DNA of 64,000 nt. It comes from Terriglobia bacterium (lineage in GTDB: Bacteria; Acidobacteriota; Terriglobia; Terriglobales; Acidobacteriaceae). Positions 16,201 to 28,454 of the stretch are shown here, one piece after another. The notes beneath the pieces are model-generated. The model searched no databases, had not been told where the DNA came from, and worked only from the letters and a program-made list of their open reading frames with translations. The stretch is from positions 248,001 through 312,000 of the forward strand of contig JAIQFP010000002.1 in NCBI GenBank assembly GCA_020073165.1, in the 5' to 3' direction. The number at the start of each line of letters is the position of its first letter. The stretch's first letter is position 1. Position numbers and translations under genes: made by a program.

Positions 16201-16388
16201 TAGAACCTCTCTCTGACGTCTTGGATGTTCTTACTAAGGTGTAGCGGAAACGACCCGAGGCACGTGGATTCTAGCAGAACTCCGGCACGCTCGCCGCACG
16301 CGCTGTGGGCTCTGAGCCGGATTGCGGAATCCTTGCCTCACAGTTTGCTTTTTGGTACCCGGCACCACAGGATGGAGGAGTTGTTGTG

Positions 16389-19300
16389 ATGCGTTTGCCC
16401 CAGGGCCTCCCCGTTAAAATCGCTTCGCTCGTGCTCTGTCTCCTCGACTTTGCCGCGTTGTCGTCTGCAGCGGGGTTCCGCACCGCCACTGCGTACGGCA
16501 CCGCCACCAACGCCTATTCCATCGCGGTCGGCGACTTCAATCAGGACGGAATCCTTGACCAATGCGTAGTCAACTATAACAACGGCGGCACTGGAGTCGT
16601 GAGCATGCTCCTGGGCAACGGCGATGGCACCTTCCAACCCGCGGTCAACTACAACGCCGGGTTGGGACCGCGGTTCATTGCCGAAGGCGACTTCAATAAC
16701 GACGGCAAACTTGACGTTGTCATTGCCAATCAGTTGAGCAACAACGTCAGCGTTCTTCTCGGCAATGGCAACGGCACCCTGCAAGCCCCCGTCAACTTTG
16801 CCGTCGGCAGCGCACCCTGGAACGTGCAGGTCGCAGATTTCAACGGCGACCACAAGCCCGACCTCGTCGTCGCTAACAATGAGGGAAACAACGTCAGCAT
16901 CCTGATCGGCAATGGGGACGGCACCTTCCAGATCCCCGTGAACTACGGCACCGGCATCGGGCCCATCTTCACTCGCGTCGCCGACCTCAACAACGACAGC
17001 AAGTTCGATCTCGTCGTCGCCAACTTCGCCCCCGTCTCCAATACCATCAGCGTCCTCATGGGCAACGGCGACGGGACCTTTCAGCCGGCTGTGACCTATG
17101 CCACGAACAGCTTCGGCACGGTTTCCATCGTCGCCCTGGATCTTAGCGGTGACAATAAGGTTGACCTGGCCGTCGCCAACGAACTGGGCGACACCGTCAG
17201 CATTTTCCTTGGGAACGGCGATGGGACCTTTCAATTCCCGGTGAACTACCCCCTGGACCCCCATCCGCGCTCGGTGGCCGCAGACGACTTTAATAAGGAC
17301 GGTAAACTTGATCTGGCTGTCGCCAACTCTGGCGGCGACGACGTGGACATTCTTTTCGGCAATGGAGACGGGACTTTCCAGCCCGCTGTCAGGTATGGCG
17401 CCGGCTTCCAGCCTCGCTTCATCGCCATCGCCGATTTCGATGATGACGGCAATTTAGATCTCTCTGTGGCCAATTTCGGCAGCAACAACATCACAATCCT
17501 CCCGGGATTCGGAGATGGCACCTTCCGTTCCAGCTTCGCCTCCGGCGCCGGGAGTCAACCCACGTCCGTGGTCCTCGCCGACTTTGACCAAGACGGCAAA
17601 CTCGATCAAGCCGTGGTTAATTCCCTTTCCAATAACGTCGGCATTGAGCTCGGCAACGGCGATGGCACCTTCAAGCCGCCGGCAAACTTTTCCACCGGCA
17701 TTCTGCCGGTGTATGCGGCTGTCGGCGACTTCAACGCCGATACCAAGCCCGACTTGGCCGTGGTCAATCAGAGCAGCAATTCTGTCACCGTCCTGCTGGG
17801 CAATGGTGACGGCACATTTCATGCTGCCGCCAGCCTCAACACTGGCACCCGGCCCCAGGCGATCGTTGCCGCCGATTTCAACGGTGACGGCAAGATCGAT
17901 CTCGCCGTCGCCAGCAACAGCGGCGTCAATGTCTATCGCGGCAACGGCGACGGCACCTTTGGCGCTGGTTCCAACTTCCCCGCCGGATCGCATCCACAAT
18001 CCCTTGTGGTCGGTGACTTCAACGGAGACAGCAAGCTCGACTTGGCCGTGGCCAACAACACCGGAAATAACGTCAGCATCCTGCTGGGCAACGGCAACGG
18101 CGCATTCCAGACACCGCTGAACTTCAATGTTGGGACCGCGCCCTTCTCCGTCACCGCCGGGGACTTCGACGGCAACGGCACGCTCGATGTTGCCGTCGCC
18201 AACTCCGGAAGCAACAACATCAGCGTCCTGCTCGGCAACGGAAACGGAAGCTTGCAGCCCGCTGTGAACTACCCCGTCGGCACTACGCCAGAATTCGTCG
18301 CAGTCGCTGACTTCACTGGAGACGGAAAGCTCGACCTGGCAGTCGCCAATGAAGGCGAAGCCACCGTCAGTATTCTCGCCGGAAACGGGGATGGTTCCTT
18401 CCAGCCGGCGGCAAATTATCAGGCTGGGACCAACCCCATGGCGATCGCCCTCGCCGACGTCAATGGGGATGGCGCCCCCGATTTCACCACCGCTAATCTG
18501 GGCAGCAACACGGTCTCCACTTTGCTCAACACGGGTGGCACTTTCCTGGCGACCACCAGTTCGGTAAATCCCTCGAACTCTAGCCAGCCGGTCATGTTTA
18601 CGACTACGATCGCCGCTGGATTGCGCGACGGTGGCGTGCCCACTGGCACCATCACCTTTAAAGATGGAAACACCGTCATCGGCAGTTCGGGCATCAGTGC
18701 GGGACAGGCCAGCGTTACTACCTCCTCTCTGTCCGTCGGCGTGCACACCATTAGCGCGGCTTATTCGGGCGACGCCAACTTCAATCCCAACACCGCGCCG
18801 CCGTTTACCCAAACTGTGCTCGAAGGCCCGTCAGCGACTCTTTCTCCTTCCAGCCTCATGTTCCCGGTTCGCCGCGTCGGAAGCCCCAGTCCTTCCAAAG
18901 CCATCACCCTGACCAACACCGGCAACGTAACCCTGACGATCAGCAGCATCACAATCACCGGTGCCAGCGCCGGCGACTTTTCTCAGACCAATAATTGTGG
19001 CTCCAGCGTCGGCGCGGGCGCGAGCTGCACCATCAACGTCACCTTCCTCCCCACCGCCGCAGGGTCTCGCACCGCTGCCGTTTCCGTCGCCGATAACGCC
19101 CCCGACAGCCCGCAATCGGCTGCGCTGTCCGGCACAGGGACGGTGGTAGTACTTGCTCCCGCATCCTTGAACTTCGGCGCCCAGCAAGTCGGCACTCGGA
19201 GTCCGGCAAAGAGCGTGACCCTGACCAACATCGGTAGCTCCGCTCTGAATATCACCAGCATCACCCTCAGCGGAGTCAATGCCGCCGACTTCTTCCAGAC

Positions 19301-19457
19301 CAACAACTGCGGCTCCAGCGTCGCCGGCGGCGCCAGTTGTACCATTAGGGTGACGTTCAGGCCTTCAGCCACCGGTGCGCGTTCGGCCTCGATTAGCATC
19401 ACCGACGACGGCGGAGGCAGCCCGCAGAAGGTCCAACTCAGCGGTACCGGCACCTAG
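16389..19457 (+). CDS. Secreted FG-GAP propeller protein with Ig-like and anchor-D domains (14 repeats)
   Basis: 1022-aa exported protein. The ATG at 16389 has GGAGGAG 8 bases upstream and begins a signal peptide (KIASLVLCLLDFAALSSAA). Fourteen FG-GAP/VCBS repeats of about 48 residues fill roughly residues 30-715, again a multiple of seven. A bacterial Ig-like domain follows (about 720-810: VPTGTITFKDGNTVIGSS ... AAYSGDANFNPNTAPP), then two choice-of-anchor D domains to the end (GGGSPQKVQLSGTGT). It shares repeat type and tail with the proteins at 4291 and 11911 but has an extra Ig domain and a more divergent tail. Likely a surface or secreted binding protein. A perfect terminator follows. 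Confidence 0.88.
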   Translation: MRLPQGLPVKIASLVLCLLDFAALSSAAGFRTATAYGTATNAYSIAVGDFNQDGILDQCVVNYNNGGTGVVSMLLGNGDGTFQPAVNYNAGLGPRFIAEGDFNNDGKLDVVIANQLSNNVSVLLGNGNGTLQAPVNFAVGSAPWNVQVADFNGDHKPDLVVANNEGNNVSILIGNGDGTFQIPVNYGTGIGPIFTRVADLNNDSKFDLVVANFAPVSNTISVLMGNGDGTFQPAVTYATNSFGTVSIVALDLSGDNKVDLAVANELGDTVSIFLGNGDGTFQFPVNYPLDPHPRSVAADDFNKDGKLDLAVANSGGDDVDILFGNGDGTFQPAVRYGAGFQPRFIAIADFDDDGNLDLSVANFGSNNITILPGFGDGTFRSSFASGAGSQPTSVVLADFDQDGKLDQAVVNSLSNNVGIELGNGDGTFKPPANFSTGILPVYAAVGDFNADTKPDLAVVNQSSNSVTVLLGNGDGTFHAAASLNTGTRPQAIVAADFNGDGKIDLAVASNSGVNVYRGNGDGTFGAGSNFPAGSHPQSLVVGDFNGDSKLDLAVANNTGNNVSILLGNGNGAFQTPLNFNVGTAPFSVTAGDFDGNGTLDVAVANSGSNNISVLLGNGNGSLQPAVNYPVGTTPEFVAVADFTGDGKLDLAVANEGEATVSILAGNGDGSFQPAANYQAGTNPMAIALADVNGDGAPDFTTANLGSNTVSTLLNTGGTFLATTSSVNPSNSSQPVMFTTTIAAGLRDGGVPTGTITFKDGNTVIGSSGISAGQASVTTSSLSVGVHTISAAYSGDANFNPNTAPPFTQTVLEGPSATLSPSSLMFPVRRVGSPSPSKAITLTNTGNVTLTISSITITGASAGDFSQTNNCGSSVGAGASCTINVTFLPTAAGSRTAAVSVADNAPDSPQSAALSGTGTVVVLAPASLNFGAQQVGTRSPAKSVTLTNIGSSALNITSITLSGVNAADFFQTNNCGSSVAGGASCTIRVTFRPSATGARSASISITDDGGGSPQKVQLSGTGT

Positions 19458-19480: not shown

Positions 19481-19511
19481 ACGGCGCTACCTTCGGGTAG
19501 CGCCGTTTTTG
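19481..19511 (+). terminator. Rho-independent terminator with TTCG tetraloop
   Basis: ACGGCGCTACC (19481-19491), TTCG loop, and GGTAGCGCCGT (19496-19506) form a perfect 11-bp stem followed by TTTTG. It closes the 14-repeat propeller gene 24 bases after its stop. Confidence 0.9.
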
Positions 19512-19654: not shown

Positions 19655-19996
19655 CTACTTCTTTCTTTTCTCCGCGGACGTTTTTCCGGCTTCGTAGGGC
19701 GGCTTGTCGGTAGGAAAGTTCGTGCTCAGGTATTCGATGAATCCATCTCGGTCGGCGGCATCCACCACCGCGCCCCATTTGATCATCTTGTCTACTTCCT
19801 TGGTCCAGGCGGCCTTGCTCAGGCGCTGCTGCAGGATGATGCGCGACTCGTGACATTCGGTGCAGGCGGTCGTCACCTTGCCTTGCATCGGGCCCGGCGG
19901 CAGCTCGGGAGATTGGGCGCGAAGCAACGGCACACAGGTCATCGCGAGCACGGTCAGGACAAGGACGGCGAGGACGAGCCGGCTACGCTGCGACAT
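19655..19996 (-). CDS. Small monoheme cytochrome c, partner of sulfite dehydrogenase
   Basis: 113 aa with an N-terminal export signal (LVLAVLVLTVLAMTCVPLLRA) and one heme-attachment motif C45-T-E-C48-H49. The rest (AAWTKEVDKMIKWGAVVDAADRDGFIEYLSTNF) resembles the small cytochromes that take electrons from periplasmic sulfite dehydrogenases (SorB/SorU type). Its start overlaps the end of the molybdoenzyme gene by 14 bases, so the two are translationally linked. It probably passes electrons from sulfite oxidation to the respiratory chain. The lysine-rich C-terminus is a plausible docking surface, which is inference. Confidence 0.82.
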   Translation of the reverse strand: MSQRSRLVLAVLVLTVLAMTCVPLLRAQSPELPPGPMQGKVTTACTECHESRIILQQRLSKAAWTKEVDKMIKWGAVVDAADRDGFIEYLSTNFPTDKPPYEAGKTSAEKRKK

Positions 19997-21146
19997 GGAT
20001 CTTCACCTGGTCGATGGCGTTGTACAGATATCCGCTGGGATTCCAGACCGCGGTTGCGGGCTGGGTGCGGCCCTGAGTGTCGGTGGCGCGTGACAGGATG
20101 GTGTAGGTTCCGGCCTTCGGCGCTTTCCACGTGTGGCTCCACAGCCGCCACGCGTAGTGGGCATGCTCTTTCCCCAACTGTGCCGATTGCCAGGTGGCGC
20201 CGTCATCGGTGGAGATCTCGACGCGCGCGATGTCAGTCTCGCCTGCCCAGGCCGCGCCCTGAATATGGACGGAGCGCGACTCCAGGCTGGCCCCATCGCT
20301 GGGGCTGGCAATCAGTGATTTCACGTTCAGCGCCGTCACCGGATGCGTCTCCTCGGGCCTGACCGCCTCTCCGGGCTTGATTGGCTGGTTGGGCATGCGG
20401 TAGCCCGGATTCATGAAGTTGCCCTCGAATTCCTTATCCAACACTTTAACTTCAGCCAGCCACTTGCACGAAGCCGCGCCGACCCACCCCGGCACCAAGG
20501 CTCGTGCGGGGAATCCGTGATGCTTGGTCAGCGCAGCGCCGTTCATCTGCAGGGCGATGAGCGTGTCGGCGTCCGTGGCCTTGTCGAGCGGGATGCTGCG
20601 GATAAACGGCGGCACCTTGCCGGGAACTTCGTCGAGGCCGTGAAACATGACGTGCTTGCCTGCAGGTTTCACCCCCGCCCGCTCAAGCAGGTCGCGCAGG
20701 CGTGGCCCGCTGAAGCGCGCGGTACCCACAGCTCCCCTTTGCCATTGGACACCGGGGACGTGCGGGGTGTGGAAGGCGCGGCCATTGCCGGCGCACTCCA
20801 GCGTGTTGGTCACCGTGTGCGGCTCGAGCTTCGCCAGGTCCGCGAGGGAGAGCGTCATGGGCTTCTCGACCTCTCCGCCAATAGCGAGCCGCCACTCCGC
20901 TGCGTCCAGCGTGCTGGGTTCGTGCATGTGGTCGCGTACGAAAAAATGCGGCACCGGCGTGATAAACAAGTTGGCATACTCGGGCGGCATTTCCAGATCG
21001 AGGAAGCGGAACGACCGCACGATCATTCCTTCCTTGCCCGGAATCACCCCGCTGTCCTCTGTGGCCCAGCCGAGCAGCGGCTGAATCGCTCCAGCCGCGG
21101 CAATCGCTGCCGATGTCCGCTTGAGAAAGTCGCGTCGCGAGATCAT
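19983..21146 (-). CDS. Tat-exported sulfite oxidase-family molybdoenzyme (SorA/SorT-like)
   Basis: 387 aa. Oxidises sulfite to sulfate in the periplasm using a molybdopterin cofactor. A twin-arginine signal (SRRDFLKRTSAAIAAAGA) begins at the ATG at 21146; the longer frame from 21209 would bury it, so it is rejected. The Mo-ligand cysteine is C118 in TNTLECAGNGRAF. GFPARALVPGWVGAASCKWL is the conserved substrate and cofactor region. The C-terminal dimerisation domain contains the ARVEISTDDGATWQ motif. Pairing with a cytochrome c gene and with modA upstream supports a periplasmic dehydrogenase rather than the heme-b-fused animal type or MsrP. MsrP is the main alternative, but the cytochrome c partner and the C-terminal Ig-like domain argue against it. 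Confidence 0.9.
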   Translation of the reverse strand: MISRRDFLKRTSAAIAAAGAIQPLLGWATEDSGVIPGKEGMIVRSFRFLDLEMPPEYANLFITPVPHFFVRDHMHEPSTLDAAEWRLAIGGEVEKPMTLSLADLAKLEPHTVTNTLECAGNGRAFHTPHVPGVQWQRGAVGTARFSGPRLRDLLERAGVKPAGKHVMFHGLDEVPGKVPPFIRSIPLDKATDADTLIALQMNGAALTKHHGFPARALVPGWVGAASCKWLAEVKVLDKEFEGNFMNPGYRMPNQPIKPGEAVRPEETHPVTALNVKSLIASPSDGASLESRSVHIQGAAWAGETDIARVEISTDDGATWQSAQLGKEHAHYAWRLWSHTWKAPKAGTYTILSRATDTQGRTQPATAVWNPSGYLYNAIDQVKIHVAA

Positions 21147-21246
21147 AGGGCTGACCGCTCCGTACTGTAGGCTCCTGCGGGCTGCGTGGTCAAGACCCCC
21201 AGCCCGCAAGTCTGAACGATGCCCCGGACAGGTTTGTCGAGCGCCG

Positions 21247-22944
21247 TCAGAACGAGTAAATCAAGTCAAACTGGTAACGGTTCAGGTACGGCTCCTCCTG
21301 GCCCGCCGTCTTGATCGCGCCCTGGATCAAGGCAGCATTGTTTTCCAGCCCGGTGTTCAGTGTGCGCCCGCGCCACCAGTTAAAGCTGGCTATTGTATTC
21401 GAGCGCAGCTTCCACAAGGCGTAGATGCGATGCTCCACGATATTGGTGGAAGCCCTCTGTTCGCTCTCGGAGAAGGTAGCCAGAATCGCATCCTGCTCCT
21501 GGCGCCAGAACCCGTATCCAAATTGCAGGTCGTTCTTGTTCTTGGTCTGGCCCAGGCTCACATCCACCATGTATCCCTTACCTTGGCTGCCCAAGTCCGG
21601 GATGACTTTGCCATTGGTGTCCAAGGGATGGCTAGCTGCATCCAGATTCTGCTGGAATTCCAGCAGCACGTTCAGCGGCAGGTCCTCGCGTCCTGTTTTG
21701 ATTTCGTTGTTGAGGATGTAATCGGTATAGAAGAATCCCGACAGGAACTTTGGCAGGCCGGTGGCGGGATCCGTGTATACCGCGTTGGTCATGCCGTTCG
21801 AAGCCAGCGCGCAGGGTGCCGAAGATGGCAGCTTGGTGCTGCCCGCGGACCCGCTGGCGCAGCCCGGCCCCTCGCCGGGCAGGAAGATGGTCTTGCCTCC
21901 GCTGTCGGTCGCTTTCGTCGCCTGCGCCGCGAAGGCGCTGGCTTGCAGAATGGCGCTGGGGTTGTTCCACTTCATGGCGAAGAATTGTGGCGTGGCAGTC
22001 CACGGCCCGTATTGCAGCTTGGCGGATGCATGTGCCCCCAGCGAGTAGGAGTCGGTGCCTGCCGACATCTCGCTGTACAGGAGCTGCACTCCGCCCAAAC
22101 TGAAGTTCTTCAAGATCCCCTCGTTCATATTCCAGGAGAGTTTTTCGCTGAAGCCTTCCGGATTGATGTCCGGGTCGAAGGTCAGCGAGGTTCGGCTCCA
22201 GGTGTAGGCAAATTTTCCGCCGGTCACTTGGAGCCAGTTGTGGGCCACTGGCTGGTAGGTGATGAACGCCCGGTCCAGTCCGATGGTCTTGCGATTGAAG
22301 AAGTTGGTGAGCGACTCGTTCGCAGACGTCAGATCACCGAGCGAACCAGTCGCGATGAAAACCCCGGCGCTGAAATCCTCGTTCAGCTTGCTCTCAAATC
22401 CAAACCGGGCACGGATGCGGGCACGGTTGCGATCGGCCAAGCCGGATGCGCCCTGGAAAATGCTCTCTCCCCGCAGGCGCACGTCGCCGCTGAAGCGGAA
22501 GCGGCCCAGCGCGTCGGATAGAGCACTGATCTTCTTGGCTTCGTCTTGGGATTTGTTGTTCACCAAGGACAGCGCAGTCTTGGCTTCCACCGCGTTGGCG
22601 GACGCCTGGTCCGCCAGACGCTGCGCTTCTGCCGCTGACTGTTGCGCCTGCGCGGCCGTACTCTGCGCCTGGTCGGCGCTGCTTTGGCCCTTCTGTGCGG
22701 CGGCATTCGCCTGCTGCGTGGCATCCAGCAGTTGCTGCAACTGCGACTTCAGTTGCTCCATCTGCTGCCGCTGCTGCTCCATTTGCTCCTGCTGCGCGGT
22801 CAGAGCATCGCGGAGCTGCTGTATCTCACTTGGGCCGCCGGTTTTGGTTACCTTCTGGGCAGCGGCCTTGGGTTTAGAACTGGTCTGCCCTGCCGCGAAA
22901 GCTGCCGCCAGCACCACCACATGAAACCAGACAAGCGTTTTCAT
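21247..22944 (-). CDS. Outer-membrane porin with N-terminal coiled coil
   Basis: 565 aa. The ATG at 22944 is chosen because GGAGAAGAG stands directly upstream and a signal peptide follows (TLVWFHVVVLAAAFAAG). Residues about 35-140 are Gln/Ala-rich and heptad-like (QQEQMEQQRQQMEQLKSQLQ), a probable periplasmic trimeric coiled coil. The remainder alternates like a beta barrel (RFRFSGDVRLRGE, DRAFITYQPVAHNWLQVTGGKF) and ends with aromatic residues FDLIYSF, the usual barrel-assembly signal. It matches putative porins of Acidobacteria. It lies 31 bases after modA and 100 bases before the sulfite dehydrogenase gene, suggesting passage of molybdate, sulfite or sulfonate through the outer membrane (inference). 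Confidence 0.82.
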   Translation of the reverse strand: MKTLVWFHVVVLAAAFAAGQTSSKPKAAAQKVTKTGGPSEIQQLRDALTAQQEQMEQQRQQMEQLKSQLQQLLDATQQANAAAQKGQSSADQAQSTAAQAQQSAAEAQRLADQASANAVEAKTALSLVNNKSQDEAKKISALSDALGRFRFSGDVRLRGESIFQGASGLADRNRARIRARFGFESKLNEDFSAGVFIATGSLGDLTSANESLTNFFNRKTIGLDRAFITYQPVAHNWLQVTGGKFAYTWSRTSLTFDPDINPEGFSEKLSWNMNEGILKNFSLGGVQLLYSEMSAGTDSYSLGAHASAKLQYGPWTATPQFFAMKWNNPSAILQASAFAAQATKATDSGGKTIFLPGEGPGCASGSAGSTKLPSSAPCALASNGMTNAVYTDPATGLPKFLSGFFYTDYILNNEIKTGREDLPLNVLLEFQQNLDAASHPLDTNGKVIPDLGSQGKGYMVDVSLGQTKNKNDLQFGYGFWRQEQDAILATFSESEQRASTNIVEHRIYALWKLRSNTIASFNWWRGRTLNTGLENNAALIQGAIKTAGQEEPYLNRYQFDLIYSF

Positions 22945-22975
22945 CTCTTCTCCTGTCGTTCTTACAGCGGGGCTT

Positions 22976-23755
22976 CTATTTCGCACTTGCGCGACCACTT
23001 GGAACTGAAAAACCATATGTGCGCAAAAGGTCCAGCATCGGGGAAGTCTTCAAAAAAGCCATGAACTGGCGCGCGATCTCCCGGTTCTGCGAAGACTTGA
23101 GGATTACCGCTGCCTGCTCGATGGGGGGATATTCGCCTTTGGGGACTTCGAAGTACCGTCCCTTCTCCTTCATGGCAGGAGCCAAAGTCAGGGACAAGGC
23201 CACAATGCCGATATCAGCGCTGCCCGACACCACAAACGACGCGGTCTGGGAGATGTTCTCGCCGAGCACGAACTTGGACGCAAGTGCGTCGTAGAGTTTC
23301 TCGTGTTGCAAAGCGGCAACCGCGGCGCGGCCATAGGGCGCGTGGGCCGGATTGGCGATCGCAATCTTGTGAATACCCGGCTCGAGCAGAACCTGCAGGC
23401 CACGGCCCAGGTCCAGTTTCGATTCGTTTGGCACCCACAGCACGATTTTTCCCGTGGCGTAGGGATAGAGCGTCCCAGCTTCCGCCAGCCCGGCCGCTTC
23501 CAGTTTTCTGGGGTACTCGATGTCCGCGGAAAAGAAGACATCGAACGGCGCTCCGTTCTGAATCTGGGCAAAGAAGTTGCCGGAGGATCCGAAGATCAAT
23601 TTGACCTTCTTGCCGGTCTCTTTCTCGAACCGGGCAGCAACATCCTGAAACGCGAACTGCAGGTCAGCAGCGGCGGCGACCGTGATCTCCTGCGCGGCGC
23701 CCCGCCCAACCGTAAATGCCAACAGCAAAGCTGCACACACACCTTTGAATCTCAT
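22976..23755 (-). CDS. modA: Molybdate ABC transporter substrate-binding protein
   Basis: 259 aa with a signal peptide ending near GAA-QE. The ModA fold markers are ITVAAAADLQFAF, LIFGSSGNFFAQIQNGAPFDVFFSAD, and the late block SADIGIVALSL. It binds molybdate or tungstate in the periplasm and delivers it to a ModBC permease. No modB or modC gene is present nearby, so it must use a transporter encoded elsewhere or the neighbouring permease. It heads the series modA-porin-sulfite dehydrogenase-cytochrome, so metal capture and the molybdoenzyme that uses the metal are expressed together. A candidate sigma-70 promoter lies about 165 bases upstream. Confidence 0.88.
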   Translation of the reverse strand: MRFKGVCAALLLAFTVGRGAAQEITVAAAADLQFAFQDVAARFEKETGKKVKLIFGSSGNFFAQIQNGAPFDVFFSADIEYPRKLEAAGLAEAGTLYPYATGKIVLWVPNESKLDLGRGLQVLLEPGIHKIAIANPAHAPYGRAAVAALQHEKLYDALASKFVLGENISQTASFVVSGSADIGIVALSLTLAPAMKEKGRYFEVPKGEYPPIEQAAVILKSSQNREIARQFMAFLKTSPMLDLLRTYGFSVPSGRASAK

Positions 23756-24144
23756 GCCTCGCCCCCAGTGCGGAAATTGGTTGTTTCACACGTCTGGCCT
23801 GTGGCTGATGGGGAAAGAAATCGCCTGAGGCAGGCGGTGGCAAGGATCGAGATCCAGCAGGAGGCTGCGCGAAAGCAGGCCCGCCGTGAACCCTTGTCTA
23901 CTCTCTTCCGAGATGTTTTATTTACCCCATCAGAGAATTGCCTGTCAAGGGCAACCCGGCCGCGATGTGCGCGCGGGGACACCTTCACCCCCTCACGCGC
24001 CGGTGCAGCAAATAGATTTGCAGTGTGCATTTTTTATCTCTAGTAACCCTATCTATTCACTTGTGATTATCGCCCGGACCTCCCTGCAGGAGATCCGCCT
24101 CTGACGCGTTCCGAACCTATGGGAGCAACTTGGGCCTTGCCGCT
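23756..24144. other. Non-coding region upstream of modA
   Basis: 389 bases between ssuC-like and modA, both on the minus strand. It contains the candidate promoter at 23920-23948 and a leader of about 160 bases. I see no convincing gene. I looked for SAM-type and molybdenum-cofactor riboswitch features and could not make a confident match by eye. Confidence 0.5.
23920..23948 (-). promoter_or_regulatory. Candidate sigma-70 promoter for the modA-porin-sulfite dehydrogenase operon
   Basis: Read on the minus strand: a perfect -35 TTGACA (23948-23943), a 17-base spacer, then GTAAAT (23925-23920) as -10. Transcription would begin near 23913, leaving a leader of about 160 bases before modA. Confidence 0.6.
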
Positions 24145-24906
24145 CTAGGTAGCCGGCAACAGGCCCCACTTATGCTGCAGGTGGCGTTCGATGCCCTTGA
24201 ACACCAGGCCGTCTACGATATAGCCAATGGTGATGATCAGAAGCATCACCGCGATGACGGCGCTCATGTCGTTCAGGTCGCGACCCATCATCAGTACCTG
24301 CCCCAGTCCCAAGCTCATGTACAGCATCTCGGCGGTAATCAGTGAGCGCCAGGCAAAAGCCCAACCCTGCTTCAGGCCGCTGACGATGTAGGGGAGACTG
24401 GCGGGCAGCAGTACGTGCCAGAACAGTTGGAATCCGCTCGCGCCGAGATTGCGCCCCGCCATACTGTAGATCTTGGGCATCTGCTTGCGCCCGTCTTCCA
24501 TGGCGATGGTGACCGACAGCAGCGATCCCATGACCACCACAAACAGTATGGCGTTCTGATTGAGGCCAAACCACAGCAGGGCCAGGGGCCACCAGCAGAT
24601 ACTCGGCAGGCTCTGGAGACTCACCAGCAGCCCACCTACGGTTTCTTCCAGAAATTTGTTGCTGGCCACGCCCAGTCCAAGAATCATGCCCAACACCACA
24701 GAGATTCCGTAACCGATCAATACCCGCCGCATGCTGACGGCAATGGCGATCCAGAAGCTGTGATCCTGGAAGCCCGCGTAGAGCGCCTCGCCGACACCCC
24801 ACGGCGTGGGGAACAAATACGGCGGCCAAATCTTCAGCTCGGCGAGCAGCGTCCACAGTCCGAACAATCCGCCGTAGAAAATCACGTAGCGACCAACCCG
24901 TTTCAT
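24145..24906 (-). CDS. ssuC: Sulfonate/taurine-type ABC transporter permease
   Basis: 253 aa, inner-membrane permease of the SsuC/TauC/NrtB type with about six helices. The EAA loop that contacts the ATPase is visible as IYSMAGRNLGASGFQLFWHVLLPASLPYIVSGLKQG (about residues 145-180). WPLALLWFGLNQNAILF is also family-typical. Its start overlaps the stop of the ATPase gene by 4 bases (ATGA), so the three transporter genes form one operon. The substrate class is deduced from the family and the sulfur-related neighbours. Nitrate, cyanate or pyrimidine precursors remain possible. Confidence 0.87.
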   Translation of the reverse strand: MKRVGRYVIFYGGLFGLWTLLAELKIWPPYLFPTPWGVGEALYAGFQDHSFWIAIAVSMRRVLIGYGISVVLGMILGLGVASNKFLEETVGGLLVSLQSLPSICWWPLALLWFGLNQNAILFVVVMGSLLSVTIAMEDGRKQMPKIYSMAGRNLGASGFQLFWHVLLPASLPYIVSGLKQGWAFAWRSLITAEMLYMSLGLGQVLMMGRDLNDMSAVIAVMLLIITIGYIVDGLVFKGIERHLQHKWGLLPAT

Positions 24907-25826
24907 TGTTCTGCCCCCGGTTCCACGTGTGGTCTGACTCCTTCGTTGTACTCGACTTCAAGTGAGCGGTTGATTTCTTCGCGCAGTTCTTTGAGGACCT
25001 CACCCGCCGTTTGGGCCACGGTGGCATCTTCCAGGTGGCGAGGGCGCGGCAGGTCGATGAGAAACTCGCGCTTGATTCGTCCCGGACGGAAAGTAAACAG
25101 CACCACCCGATCGCCCAGCCGGACCGCCTCGCGCACGTTGTGCGTCACAAAGATGATGGTGCGGCCGGTCTCGGCCCAAATGCGCTCCAGTTCGTCGTGC
25201 AGCAGGTCGCGGGTCTGCGCGTCCAGCGCCGCGAAGGGCTCATCCATCAGCAGGACATCCGGTTCGGTGGCCAGCGCCCGGGCCAGGGCCACACGCTGCC
25301 GCATGCCGCCCGACAATTGGTGTGTGTAGCTGTCTTTGAACTGTGACAAGTGCACCAGCCGCAGGTAATACTCCGTCTTCTCCCTCCGCTCCGCCTTCGA
25401 CATCCCCTTCATCTTCATGCCGAACTCAACGTTCTCCCCCACCTTCAGCCAGGGAAAAAGGCCGAGATCCTGGAAGATGAGAATGCGGTCCGTACCCGGT
25501 CCCTCCACCCGGTTGTCATCCACCAGAACACAGCCTGAGGTCGGCGGCTGCAGGCCGGCAATCAAATGCAGCAGCGTGGACTTGCCGCAGCCCGACGGCC
25601 CCACGATGCAGACAAACTCCCCAGGATTAACCTTGAGATCAATGTGGTCGAGCGCCAGCAGCCGCTGTCCACTGCTCGTCTTGTAGCTGAGAGAAATCTC
25701 TTGTAGCGACACCTTGGGAATACTGTTGGTAGAGAGCGGATGCAGCGGCAGCGTCGCCACAGATTTCCTGCCGTTCGTAGGCGGTCTGCCATGATCGCTG
25801 GACAAGACTTGCGGCGCGGTTGTCAT
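24903..25826 (-). CDS. ssuB: Sulfonate/taurine-type ABC transporter ATPase
   Basis: 307 aa. Walker A GPSGCGKSTLLHLIAGL, Q-loop region IFQDLGLFPWLKVGENVEFG, signature LSGGMRQRVALARAL, Walker B LLMDEPFAALD, and H-loop FVTHNVREA are all present. The first 45 residues are an extra low-complexity stretch not typical of SsuB, and the C-terminus extends past the nucleotide domain. Overlaps of 4 bases with both the binding-protein gene upstream and the permease gene downstream indicate strict co-translation. Confidence 0.9.
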   Translation of the reverse strand: MTTAPQVLSSDHGRPPTNGRKSVATLPLHPLSTNSIPKVSLQEISLSYKTSSGQRLLALDHIDLKVNPGEFVCIVGPSGCGKSTLLHLIAGLQPPTSGCVLVDDNRVEGPGTDRILIFQDLGLFPWLKVGENVEFGMKMKGMSKAERREKTEYYLRLVHLSQFKDSYTHQLSGGMRQRVALARALATEPDVLLMDEPFAALDAQTRDLLHDELERIWAETGRTIIFVTHNVREAVRLGDRVVLFTFRPGRIKREFLIDLPRPRHLEDATVAQTAGEVLKELREEINRSLEVEYNEGVRPHVEPGAEQ

Positions 25827-26833
25827 TGGATGGCCTTCTTTCCCTTTTCCGCCAGCACCTGGTTCAACAGGGTCAAGTCATACAGCCCGGACAAATCCGG
25901 CATCTGCCGGCCGAGGAAGCCGGCTTCGAACGCCGAGCGCGCCGAGGTCAGCAAGGTATTGCGCAAGGGATCATAGGTGACCTCGATGCGATTGAATGCC
26001 TCGTCGAGCACGCCCTGGGAAAGCGCTTTGCCGGTTTCTTTCTGAATCTGCTGGTTGAGCAGTTTCTTGGCTTCCGGCAGATGTCCATTGATCCAATCGG
26101 TCAGTTCCACATTGGCGCGCAGCCAGTTCTTCACCAGGTCGGAATGCTCCTGCAGGAATTTCTTGCTTACGATCAGATTGGTGACCACGAACTGCCCTTT
26201 CGGCCACAGATCGCGTTCATCCAGAAACAAGCGTCCGTTGCCATCGTGGATCAGGCGGGTCGCCCAGGGCTCTGGAGCCCAGGCTGCATCGAGCTCCTTC
26301 TTAAGGAAGAGCGTGAGCTGGTCAGGATTGGCCATCGGCATGACCTGCACGTCGCCACCCTTGTCGGTGGACTTCATGCCATGAGCTTTCAGCCACGCCC
26401 GCAACGCTACGTCTTGCGTATTTCCCTGCTGCGGCGATGCCACCTTCTTGCCGTGAAAGTCTTCCGGCTTCTCAATGCCGGAATCGGCGCGCACTACCAA
26501 CGCGGCCCCGCCGCTGGCCGCTCCTCCAATTACCCGCAGGGCTTCCCCCTGGGAGCGCACATAGCCGCTGATGGTGGGATTAGGGCCGATGTACGTCATG
26601 TCAATCGCGCCGGCAAACAGCGCTTCGATGGCTGATGGCCCGGCATTGAAGCTCTTCCAGTCGATCTTCACGTTCGGGCCCATGGCTTTTTCGAAATACC
26701 CGTTGGCCTTGCCCACCATGGCTTGCGCATGGGTGATGTTGGGAAAGGCCCCCACGTGGATCACCGTCTGTGCGAACCCTTGCATTGCAAAAACGAGAAT
26801 GAAACCCAGTGCCGCCAGGACCCTTTTAGTCAT
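25823..26833 (-). CDS. ssuA: Sulfonate-type ABC transporter substrate-binding protein
   Basis: 336 aa, NMT1/SsuA-like periplasmic binding protein with a signal peptide (VLAALGFILVFAMQGFA-QT). Family features are IHVGAFPNITHAQAMVGKANGYFEKAMG, EALFAGAIDMTYIGPNPTISGY and GKKVASPQQGNTQDVALRAWL. Binding is expected for an alkanesulfonate or similar small anion, but family resemblance does not fix the ligand. Its first 8 bases overlap the end of the rrf2 gene, so the regulator and transporter share a transcript. No SsuD monooxygenase gene is present in the window. Confidence 0.85.
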   Translation of the reverse strand: MTKRVLAALGFILVFAMQGFAQTVIHVGAFPNITHAQAMVGKANGYFEKAMGPNVKIDWKSFNAGPSAIEALFAGAIDMTYIGPNPTISGYVRSQGEALRVIGGAASGGAALVVRADSGIEKPEDFHGKKVASPQQGNTQDVALRAWLKAHGMKSTDKGGDVQVMPMANPDQLTLFLKKELDAAWAPEPWATRLIHDGNGRLFLDERDLWPKGQFVVTNLIVSKKFLQEHSDLVKNWLRANVELTDWINGHLPEAKKLLNQQIQKETGKALSQGVLDEAFNRIEVTYDPLRNTLLTSARSAFEAGFLGRQMPDLSGLYDLTLLNQVLAEKGKKAIQ

Positions 26834-27332
26834 CTTTTCCCCTGTTCACGTTCCCGTGGACCACCATCGGCAAAACCCCCGCTCCTTCCCCCTTTTTCCT
26901 GCGCCGCTTCCCCGGCTGCGATGATTTCGGGCCCACGATGTCGGCCAGCGTCGTGTGCTCCAGGATTTTGGCGGCAGCGTCGCGCACTTCCAGGAACACC
27001 TTGTACAGCGCACGGTGCTCGGCGTCGCGATCGATCAGGCTGCGTAGTTGCTCGGCGTCGGCAAACGGCGCCAGCGGCCCGTCAATCAGACGAATGATCT
27101 CGCTGAGGTGAATTTCATTCGGAGGCCGCCGCAACTGGTAGCCGCCCTTGGCTCCACGCACACTTTCCACCATGCGCGCGTTCTTCATTTCCAGCAGGAT
27201 CAGCTCCAGAAACTTCTCCGGCAGTCCTTCTTCGTAAGCGATGTCGCGAATCCGGATGGCGCCCTGGTTGTGGTGGCGGGCCAGCATCATCATGGCTTGC
27301 AGCGCGTACAGTCCTTTTTGCGAGATCTTCAT
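26826..27332 (-). CDS. Rrf2-family transcriptional regulator (cysteine-free, CymR-like)
   Basis: 168 aa. Starts at the family-typical MKISQKGLYALQAMMMLARHH, with the winged-helix recognition region IRIRDIAYEEGLPEKFLELILLEMKNARMVESVRGAKGGYQL. There are no cysteines anywhere, so it cannot hold an iron-sulfur cluster as IscR or NsrR do. That points to the CymR-like branch, which senses sulfur status through a partner protein or small molecule. The C-terminal tail (GKRRRKKGEG) is basic and probably disordered. It leads the sulfonate transporter operon and has a palindrome over its own promoter, so autoregulation and control of ssuABC are likely. Confidence 0.87.
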   Translation of the reverse strand: MKISQKGLYALQAMMMLARHHNQGAIRIRDIAYEEGLPEKFLELILLEMKNARMVESVRGAKGGYQLRRPPNEIHLSEIIRLIDGPLAPFADAEQLRSLIDRDAEHRALYKVFLEVRDAAAKILEHTTLADIVGPKSSQPGKRRRKKGEGAGVLPMVVHGNVNRGKDD

Positions 27333-27347
27333 GACGACTATATTCTC

Positions 27348-27376
27348 ATAAAGTCTATTCATTCGATAGACTTTAT
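27348..27376 (-). promoter_or_regulatory. Perfect 11-bp inverted repeat, probable Rrf2 operator
   Basis: ATAAAGTCTAT (27348-27358), 7-base spacer TCATTCG, ATAGACTTTAT (27366-27376). The repeat ends 15 bases before the rrf2 ATG. Its distal arm covers the putative -10 element, the right geometry for autorepression. Confidence 0.75.
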
Positions 27377-27638: not shown

Positions 27639-28454
27639 CTACCGGCTGCCGTCAGTGCCCACGCGCAGAATCTGCATGGTGATGTTATCAGGGCCACCGC
27701 GCTGTCTCGCAGTCTCGACCAGTTCGCGGCAAGCATCGTGCGGATTTTTCGTGCTGACCACGCCCCGGATCTCGTCATCGTTCACCACACCCCACAGGCC
27801 ATCGGTACACAGCACCAGCACATCTCCCGCGTCGAGCGACACGGGTTGCTCGGGAGTATCCGGCGTGATTTCCGTGCCCGCTCCCAGGGCCGCGGTAAGA
27901 ATGTGCCGTTGCGGATGAGACTCGGCTTCTTCCGAACTGATGACCCCATGTTCAACCAGGCGGCTGACATAGGAGTGATCGTGGGTTAGTTGGGAGATGC
28001 TGCCATTCCGTACCAGGTACAAACGGCTGTCGCCGACGTGCGCATAATAAAGATGATGGCCGAGCAATGCGATCGCGGTGCAGGTCGTCCCCATGCCGTG
28101 TAGAGCCGAGCGTTCCCTTGCGTGTTCCTGAATGCGCTCGTGCGCCGCCTGGAATGCGCTCACCAGCAAAGCTTGTGGTTCGGAGTCGGGAGTATCGGCG
28201 TACACCGCTTCGACGGTCTCCACCGCCAGGCGGCTGGCTTCCTGGCCACCCTCATAACCGCCCATGCCGTCGGCGATAATGGCCAGCCTGCCCTTGGTCT
28301 GGAACTGGCCCTCGTCGGCCGGCTCCCAATAGGAGCACCGATCCTCGTTGTTTTCTCGGTGGCAGCCCACATCACTCAGGCTGCCCAGTTCAATCCCGTG
28401 ACGAATCCGCATCAGACCTTTTGCACTCTCTCCTTGTTTCTTCCAGGACAGCAT
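27639..28454 (-). CDS. PP2C-family protein serine/threonine phosphatase
   Basis: 271 aa, metal-dependent phosphatase expected to oppose Ser/Thr kinases in the cytoplasm. Motifs: SDVGCHRENNEDRC (N-terminal metal Asp), IIADGMGGYEGGQEAS, GTTCTAIALLGHHLYYAHVGDSRLYL, LCTDGLWGVVNDDEI, and the final GGPDNITMQIL. The catalytic domain accounts for the whole protein; there is no membrane segment. Two starts are possible: 28454 (GAGG 5 bases upstream) and the internal ATG at 28412. A Ser/Thr kinase with a very similar -10 region lies 13 kb away and could be a functional partner (inference). Confidence 0.9.
   Translation of the reverse strand: MLSWKKQGESAKGLMRIRHGIELGSLSDVGCHRENNEDRCSYWEPADEGQFQTKGRLAIIADGMGGYEGGQEASRLAVETVEAVYADTPDSEPQALLVSAFQAAHERIQEHARERSALHGMGTTCTAIALLGHHLYYAHVGDSRLYLVRNGSISQLTHDHSYVSRLVEHGVISSEEAESHPQRHILTAALGAGTEITPDTPEQPVSLDAGDVLVLCTDGLWGVVNDDEIRGVVSTKNPHDACRELVETARQRGGPDNITMQILRVGTDGSR

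Follow-up and report, generated by a model that had tools for sequence, protein, structure and literature searches.

Organisation of the locus

The window, a stretch of 64,000 nt from the Terriglobia bacterium GCA_020073165.1 (contig JAIQFP010000002.1, positions 248,001-312,000) to which all coordinates refer, encodes on its minus strand an Rrf2-family regulator, a sulfonate-type ABC transporter, a molybdate-binding protein, a porin, a sulfite dehydrogenase and a c-type cytochrome (Table 1); relatives are denoted by G-numbers and as SRVP_17. A preliminary description had reported modA, a porin, a Tat-exported enzyme of the sulfite oxidase family and its cytochrome c as four consecutive genes on one strand, and these were recovered at that place, with gaps, calculated from the coordinates, of 31 nt between modA and the porin gene and 100 nt between the latter and the sorA-like gene, which overlaps the cytochrome gene by 14 nt. 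The upstream part of the same locus (rrf2-ssuABC, 24145-27332) had been missed. The ssuC/ssuB, ssuB/ssuA and ssuA/rrf2 pairs overlap by 4, 4 and 8 nt, respectively, on the same strand and directly upstream of the four-gene run, and the locus therefore spans positions 27332 to 19655. A stretch of 389 nt separates ssuC from modA and is likely the boundary between two transcription units. Convergent with the locus, a 1050-aa repeat protein, FG-GAP-like by eye, is encoded on the plus strand (16305-19457), and a strong terminator-like hairpin is located at 19481-19506.

Table 1. Genes and predicted regulatory features of the locus, from upstream to downstream
Feature	Position	Strand	Basis
PP2C phosphatase gene	27639..28454	-	Stp1_PP2C 243.7 bits (cut-off 230)
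Operator 1 (predicted)	27348..27376		Palindrome ATAAAGTCTAT-N7-ATAGACTTTAT, 16 nt before rrf2 start
rrf2, Rrf2-family regulator (168 aa)	26826..27332	-	PF02082 114.7 bits
ssuA-like, substrate-binding protein	25823..26833	-	TIGR01728 (SsuA_fam) 213.6 bits (cut-off 163.5)
ssuB-like, ABC ATPase	24903..25826	-	PF00005
ssuC-like, ABC permease	24145..24906	-	PF00528
Operator 2 (predicted)	24042..24070		Weaker palindrome, 77 nt after ssuC, upstream of modA; score 12.5
Promoter-like box	23920..23948	-	TTGACA-N17-GTAAAT; TTGAC and TAAA invariant in 4 aligned sequences
modA leader (candidate structured RNA)	23815..23914	-	About 100 nt conserved; 4 of 398 family genomes
Terminator-like hairpin	23822..23836	-	CGCCTG-CCT-CAGGCG, then ATTTCTTTCC; inside leader
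modA, molybdate-binding protein	22976..23755	-	TIGR01256 207.4 bits (cut-off 62.5)
Coiled-coil beta-barrel porin	21247..22944	-	PF16930 (Porin_5) 91.8 bits (gathering score 22)
SorA-like sulfite dehydrogenase	19983..21146	-	Tat signal SRRDFLK; PF00174 and PF03404
SorB-like c-type cytochrome	19655..19996	-	One CXXCH at residue 45 (one haem)

The regulator, the transporter and the sulfite dehydrogenase

The regulator also scores above the cut-off of the Rrf2 model TIGR00738 (109.5 against 73.3 bits) and contains no cysteine at all. It resembles the Rrf2-family cysteine regulator CymR in its superfamily and in having no Fe-S cysteines, but differs in reaching only 108.6 bits with the CymR model NF047409, under the cut-off of 195. 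In many relatives the PP2C gene lies beside or upstream of rrf2, of which it is the usual upstream neighbour. The best PDB match of the SsuA-like protein is the taurine-binding 6ssy, while the nitrate-, taurine- and sulfonate-type models all scored under their cut-offs with the SsuB-like ATPase. The locus shares with the SsuABC and TauABC sulfonate importers a binding protein above the SsuA-family cut-off; unlike them, it includes no desulfonating enzyme, with no SsuD over the cut-off in the six genomes searched, and has a porin and a sulfite dehydrogenase added. The missing SsuD counts against the interpretation preferred below.

Both domains of the sulfite oxidase fold are found in the molybdenum enzyme above the gathering scores (PF00174, 192.7 bits; PF03404, 71.5 bits). 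Its best PDB match is 2blf, the SorAB structure of Starkeya novella, with whose active site its positions were aligned, and R71, H73, C118, R123 and Y249, which are presumably active-site residues, are invariant in all 17 sequences compared. The kept active-site positions and the adjacent cytochrome gene are further likenesses to SorAB. The differences lie in the scores, which for both proteins fall under the NCBI equivalog cut-offs (316.6 bits against 600 for SorA, NF052245; 32.6 bits against 93 for SorB, NF052246) and count against the interpretation preferred below; the enzyme is called SorA-like for this reason.

The porin and the distribution of the locus in relatives

The best-matching stretch of the porin to Porin_5 covers residues 170-299. 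Its predicted structure is clearly a barrel, although of low confidence (mean pLDDT 59.6), and this low-confidence model matches OmpM1 with a Z score of 22.5 and OprO/OprP at Z of about 20, equally to general porins. Five arginines (R172, R174, R176, R178 and R180), invariant in 14 of 14 sequences, lie in a predicted strand of the same low-confidence model, which would fit an anion channel. The position of the porin does not depend on modA: a porin, of the Porin_5 or Porin_O_P type across relatives, holds the same position in many loci that lack modA. The porin therefore belongs to sulfur acquisition, with modA as an addition in one lineage.

Of 200 genomes of the order, 24 encode a close SsuC (E<=1e-40). 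In four of these 24 ssuABC loci, those of the source genome, G181, G148 and G167, modA is found between ssuC and the porin gene. Conservation of the gene order, raised as a question in the preliminary description, was found for the modA-containing arrangement, which recurs in G148, G167 and, as seen among the SorA loci, SRVP_17. The block that recurs in relatives is PP2C-rrf2-ssuABC-porin-sorA-cytochrome, and loci without modA retain rrf2-ssuABC-porin-sorA-cytochrome or parts of it. A survey of named SorA loci, taken as the best 80 of at least 575 SorA matches, found the cytochrome gene next to sorA in 80 of the 80, rrf2 nearby in 17, ssuABC in 10 and modA in two (SRVP_17 and the G148 contig), both of which are among the 10 with ssuABC. 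In G181, modA and the porin gene are kept behind ssuC, and there is no SorA match in this genome at E<=1e-60. In G064, ssuABC is followed by genes resembling cysD, cysN and cysH (named by eye).

Predicted Rrf2 operators

Two palindromes flank the rrf2-ssuABC unit. Operator 1 is the top site in the window (score 43.0), scored with a matrix trained on rrf2-upstream sites that include operator 1 itself, and usable sites of this kind occur before rrf2 in 22 of the 24 loci. With up to three mismatches allowed, 11 of 12 genomes contain the pattern exactly once and G167 lacks it; the reversed control pattern gave one match in two of the 12. Operator 2 compares with a score of -0.0 for the next independent site of the window (one not overlapping operator 1) and of 8.1 for the best of 10 shuffled windows, and a post-ssuC palindrome at a shuffle p<=0.02 is present in 13 of the 24 loci, the window included. 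In the other modA-bearing loci this second site is weak in G148 (-4.0), moderate in G167 (6.2) and absent from G181, which counts against the preferred interpretation. Rrf2 would bind both palindromes. A palindrome directly before sorA was considered as a further operator and rejected, as it attains p<=0.02 in just four of 23 loci. In G148, a strong palindrome (26.7) lies between modA and the porin gene (L093 8593-8621), suggestive of an operator that re-formed once modA had been inserted.

The promoter-like box and the modA leader

The preliminary description had placed the four downstream genes behind a single TTGACA-17-GTAAAT promoter. The box itself is present; the view of it as the single promoter overlooks the upstream rrf2-ssuABC unit and the post-ssuC palindrome. 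Its -10 element matches at three of six positions, the window contains five TTGACA sites whose -10 is just as loose, and a promoter scan of the window did not list it.

Between the box and modA, the leader is identical to the window at 98 of 100 positions in SRVP_17, 68 of 100 in G148 and 81 of 100 in G167, as against 119 of 141, 43 of 107 and 48 of 113 modA third positions at shared residues. With a covariance model under strict filters it was found once in each of its four family genomes, always before the modA of the sulfur locus, and nhmmer over the collected loci likewise confined it to the modA-bearing sulfur loci of the source genome, SRVP_17, G148 and G167; G181 lacks it. No Rfam family, the Moco RNA included, matched positions 23700-24200 at E<=10, none reached the gathering score in the whole window, and the loci of eight relatives yielded three tRNAs only. 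The leader resembles the Moco riboswitch, in the accessible part of its description (PMC2408646), as a conserved element upstream of a molybdate-transport gene, but differs from it in its far narrower range and in having no Rfam match at E<=10.

The hairpin within the leader changes its outer pair on both sides in two of the four sequences, and terminator-like sites in the region are no more numerous than in shuffles. In the consensus fold, which derives from the same four sequences as the pair counts, 94.4% of cells are paired and four pairs change on both sides, a number reached in 26 of 500 shuffles; slid versions of the fold gave none or one. The folding energies are not below those of shuffles (z of -1.14, -0.64, -0.50 and -1.34 for the 100-nt leaders and -0.60 for a longer piece of the window). 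These leaders may have in common a fold that includes the terminator-like hairpin, towards which the pair counts lean slightly. Two other identities were rejected: a translated small ORF, as the three-frame translations gave, by eye, no convincing self-started peptide although a 92-aa frame crosses the leader, and a wider RNA family, given the restriction to four of 398 family genomes. Tentatively, and at a low probability, the leader could act as a novel cis-regulatory RNA, either an attenuator or a riboswitch. Along with the Rrf2 operator upstream of it, it would then place molybdenum capture under the control of molybdenum as well as sulfur status, leaving the molybdate transporter split between two regulons.

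Origin of the sulfur-locus modA

The score above the TIGR01256 cut-off supports the assignment of ModA as a molybdate-binding protein, and it is the only match to this profile in the source genome; each of the 11 genomes tested encodes exactly one ModA. The remark in the preliminary description that ModBC is missing is true locally, as modB and modC are located on another contig (C10). The parts of a ModABC importer are thus all present in the genome, with the difference that modA lies on a contig apart from modBC, in a sulfur locus and behind its own leader. Among the matches listed, 139 of 149 modA rows have a modB, with 121 pairs within 5 kb and 18 apart, the latter including G186, probably on account of a contig break.

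In G108 and G186, modA lies next to modB, with the same membrane-fusion gene on its other side, as far as the contig extends in G186. The source genome and G181 have modB at the same site without modA, and no native modA remnant was detected at the modBC site of the source genome, the best match (E 0.45) lying elsewhere on that locus. Between the source genome and G108, identity is 88% for ModB but only 53% for ModA. In the ModB tree the source genome, G181, G167, G108 and G186 group together (95/94); in the ModA tree G108 and G186 join the modBC-linked ModAs (99/97), while the sulfur-locus ModAs fall in another group with G116, G195, G102 and G117 (86/91). Such a split of the ModAs from genomes whose ModBs group together fits replacement of the native modA, and the trees favour the view that the gene next to modBC was so replaced. 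Several observations count against this account: support for the wider clade of orphan ModAs is just 86/91, the four sulfur-locus ModAs do not form one clade in the best tree, a single origin being recovered in 30% of bootstraps, and no modB was found in G148 at E<=1e-30, for which the replacement model does not account.

The ligand positions of Pseudomonas aeruginosa ModA are, in the accessible part of PMC9171197, Thr60, Asn33, Tyr141 and Ile168. Ser58, Tyr141 and Ile168 of the window's ModA match Thr60, Tyr141 and Ile168, so that three of the four positions are the same or conservative; Asp31 takes the place of Asn33, which counts against the preferred interpretation, although Asp31 is invariant in the 10 aligned ModAs.

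A proposed sulfur regulon producing the molybdate receptor

The locus is most readily understood as a sulfur locus under the control of Rrf2, found in soil Acidobacteriota and made up of an ABC importer of the sulfonate type, a porin of the outer membrane, and a sulfite dehydrogenase that works in the periplasm together with its cytochrome. Within a single lineage modA, with its own promoter and leader, would have been placed between ssuC and the porin gene and the native modA beside modBC lost; the only periplasmic molybdate receptor would therefore be produced from the sulfur locus, serving a ModBC encoded elsewhere. That the sulfur regulon has in this manner taken over the sole molybdate receptor of the cell, by the mechanism proposed here, is given a probability of about 0.55. 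Until sulfur becomes scarce, Rrf2 would repress the operon that encodes it and, at the second palindrome, modA-porin-sorA-cytochrome as well, the sites being observed and the binding and signal presumed. The porin would then admit small anions and SsuABC, judging from its family, import a sulfonate-like compound, while the SorA-like enzyme, given its conserved active-site residues, would oxidise sulfite and pass the electrons to the cytochrome. ModA would deliver molybdate to ModBC to supply every molybdenum enzyme, and molybdenum capture should therefore increase whenever the sulfur locus is expressed. In some soil Acidobacteria, the supply of molybdenum and the use of sulfur may thus be switched together.

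A less probable alternative is that a mobile orphan modA landed here by chance, its neighbours being irrelevant to its function. Among the matches listed, modA and modB are indeed apart in 18 of the 139 genomes compared (G186 being probably a contig break), orphan modA genes can have neighbours with no evident relation to them (for example, named by eye, metK-ahcY in G197 or a DnaG-like gene in G096), and the single modA of G102 (L128 1785-2492) lies outside the sulfur locus, on the strand of rrf2 and about 5 kb upstream of it. Against chance placement, the ssuC-modA-porin order is kept in the source genome, G181, G148, G167 and SRVP_17 despite divergence of ModA to 73-78% identity, and the leader is much more conserved than silent sites.

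Dedicated metal supply for one enzyme, as put forward in the preliminary description, would have ModA present to load the sulfite dehydrogenase. Its factual basis stands, in that a genuine modA shares one tightly spaced run with the genes for a porin, a molybdenum sulfite dehydrogenase and the cytochrome of that enzyme, the molybdenum enzyme being in the same unit as modA. The supply itself is improbable: this sole ModA serves a genome with other matches to molybdenum enzymes (five PF00384 reading frames, which presumably may include a complex I subunit, and PF02738 in six reading frames, as seven rows), modA persists in G181 in the absence of a close sorA, and sorA is kept in sulfur loci without modA.

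Substrate-binding proteins of cluster D have folds in common, and modA lies directly behind ssuC, so that ModA might have been recruited by the SsuBC permease, with molybdate or else an oxyanion of sulfur entering by that route. This is very doubtful, however, as ModBC is intact elsewhere without another ModA, SsuBC already has SsuA, the oxyanion-site positions of this ModA are those of native ModAs, and P. aeruginosa ModA does not bind sulfate according to the accessible part of PMC9171197.

Judged by titles and the opening of abstracts, no publication was recognised as describing this arrangement, which is best read as a variant of known parts with two candidate regulatory elements, an Rrf2 operator and a leader RNA, both directly testable. 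Molybdate and sulfate are chemical look-alikes. With its sole molybdate receptor inside a sulfur regulon, this bacterium would represent a natural case of the uptake of one nutrient wired to that of another, and one in which an ABC importer has exchanged its binding protein but kept its permease and ATPase in place. Other settings of modA were also observed: in G116, an orphan modA follows a gene for a small PF00174 protein, with a divergent Porin_4 gene nearby (L095 7506-9014), and in G186 and G081 genes resembling, by eye, a helix-turn-helix and TOBE regulator are located directly before modA (L152 5692-6135 and L153 4606-5007).
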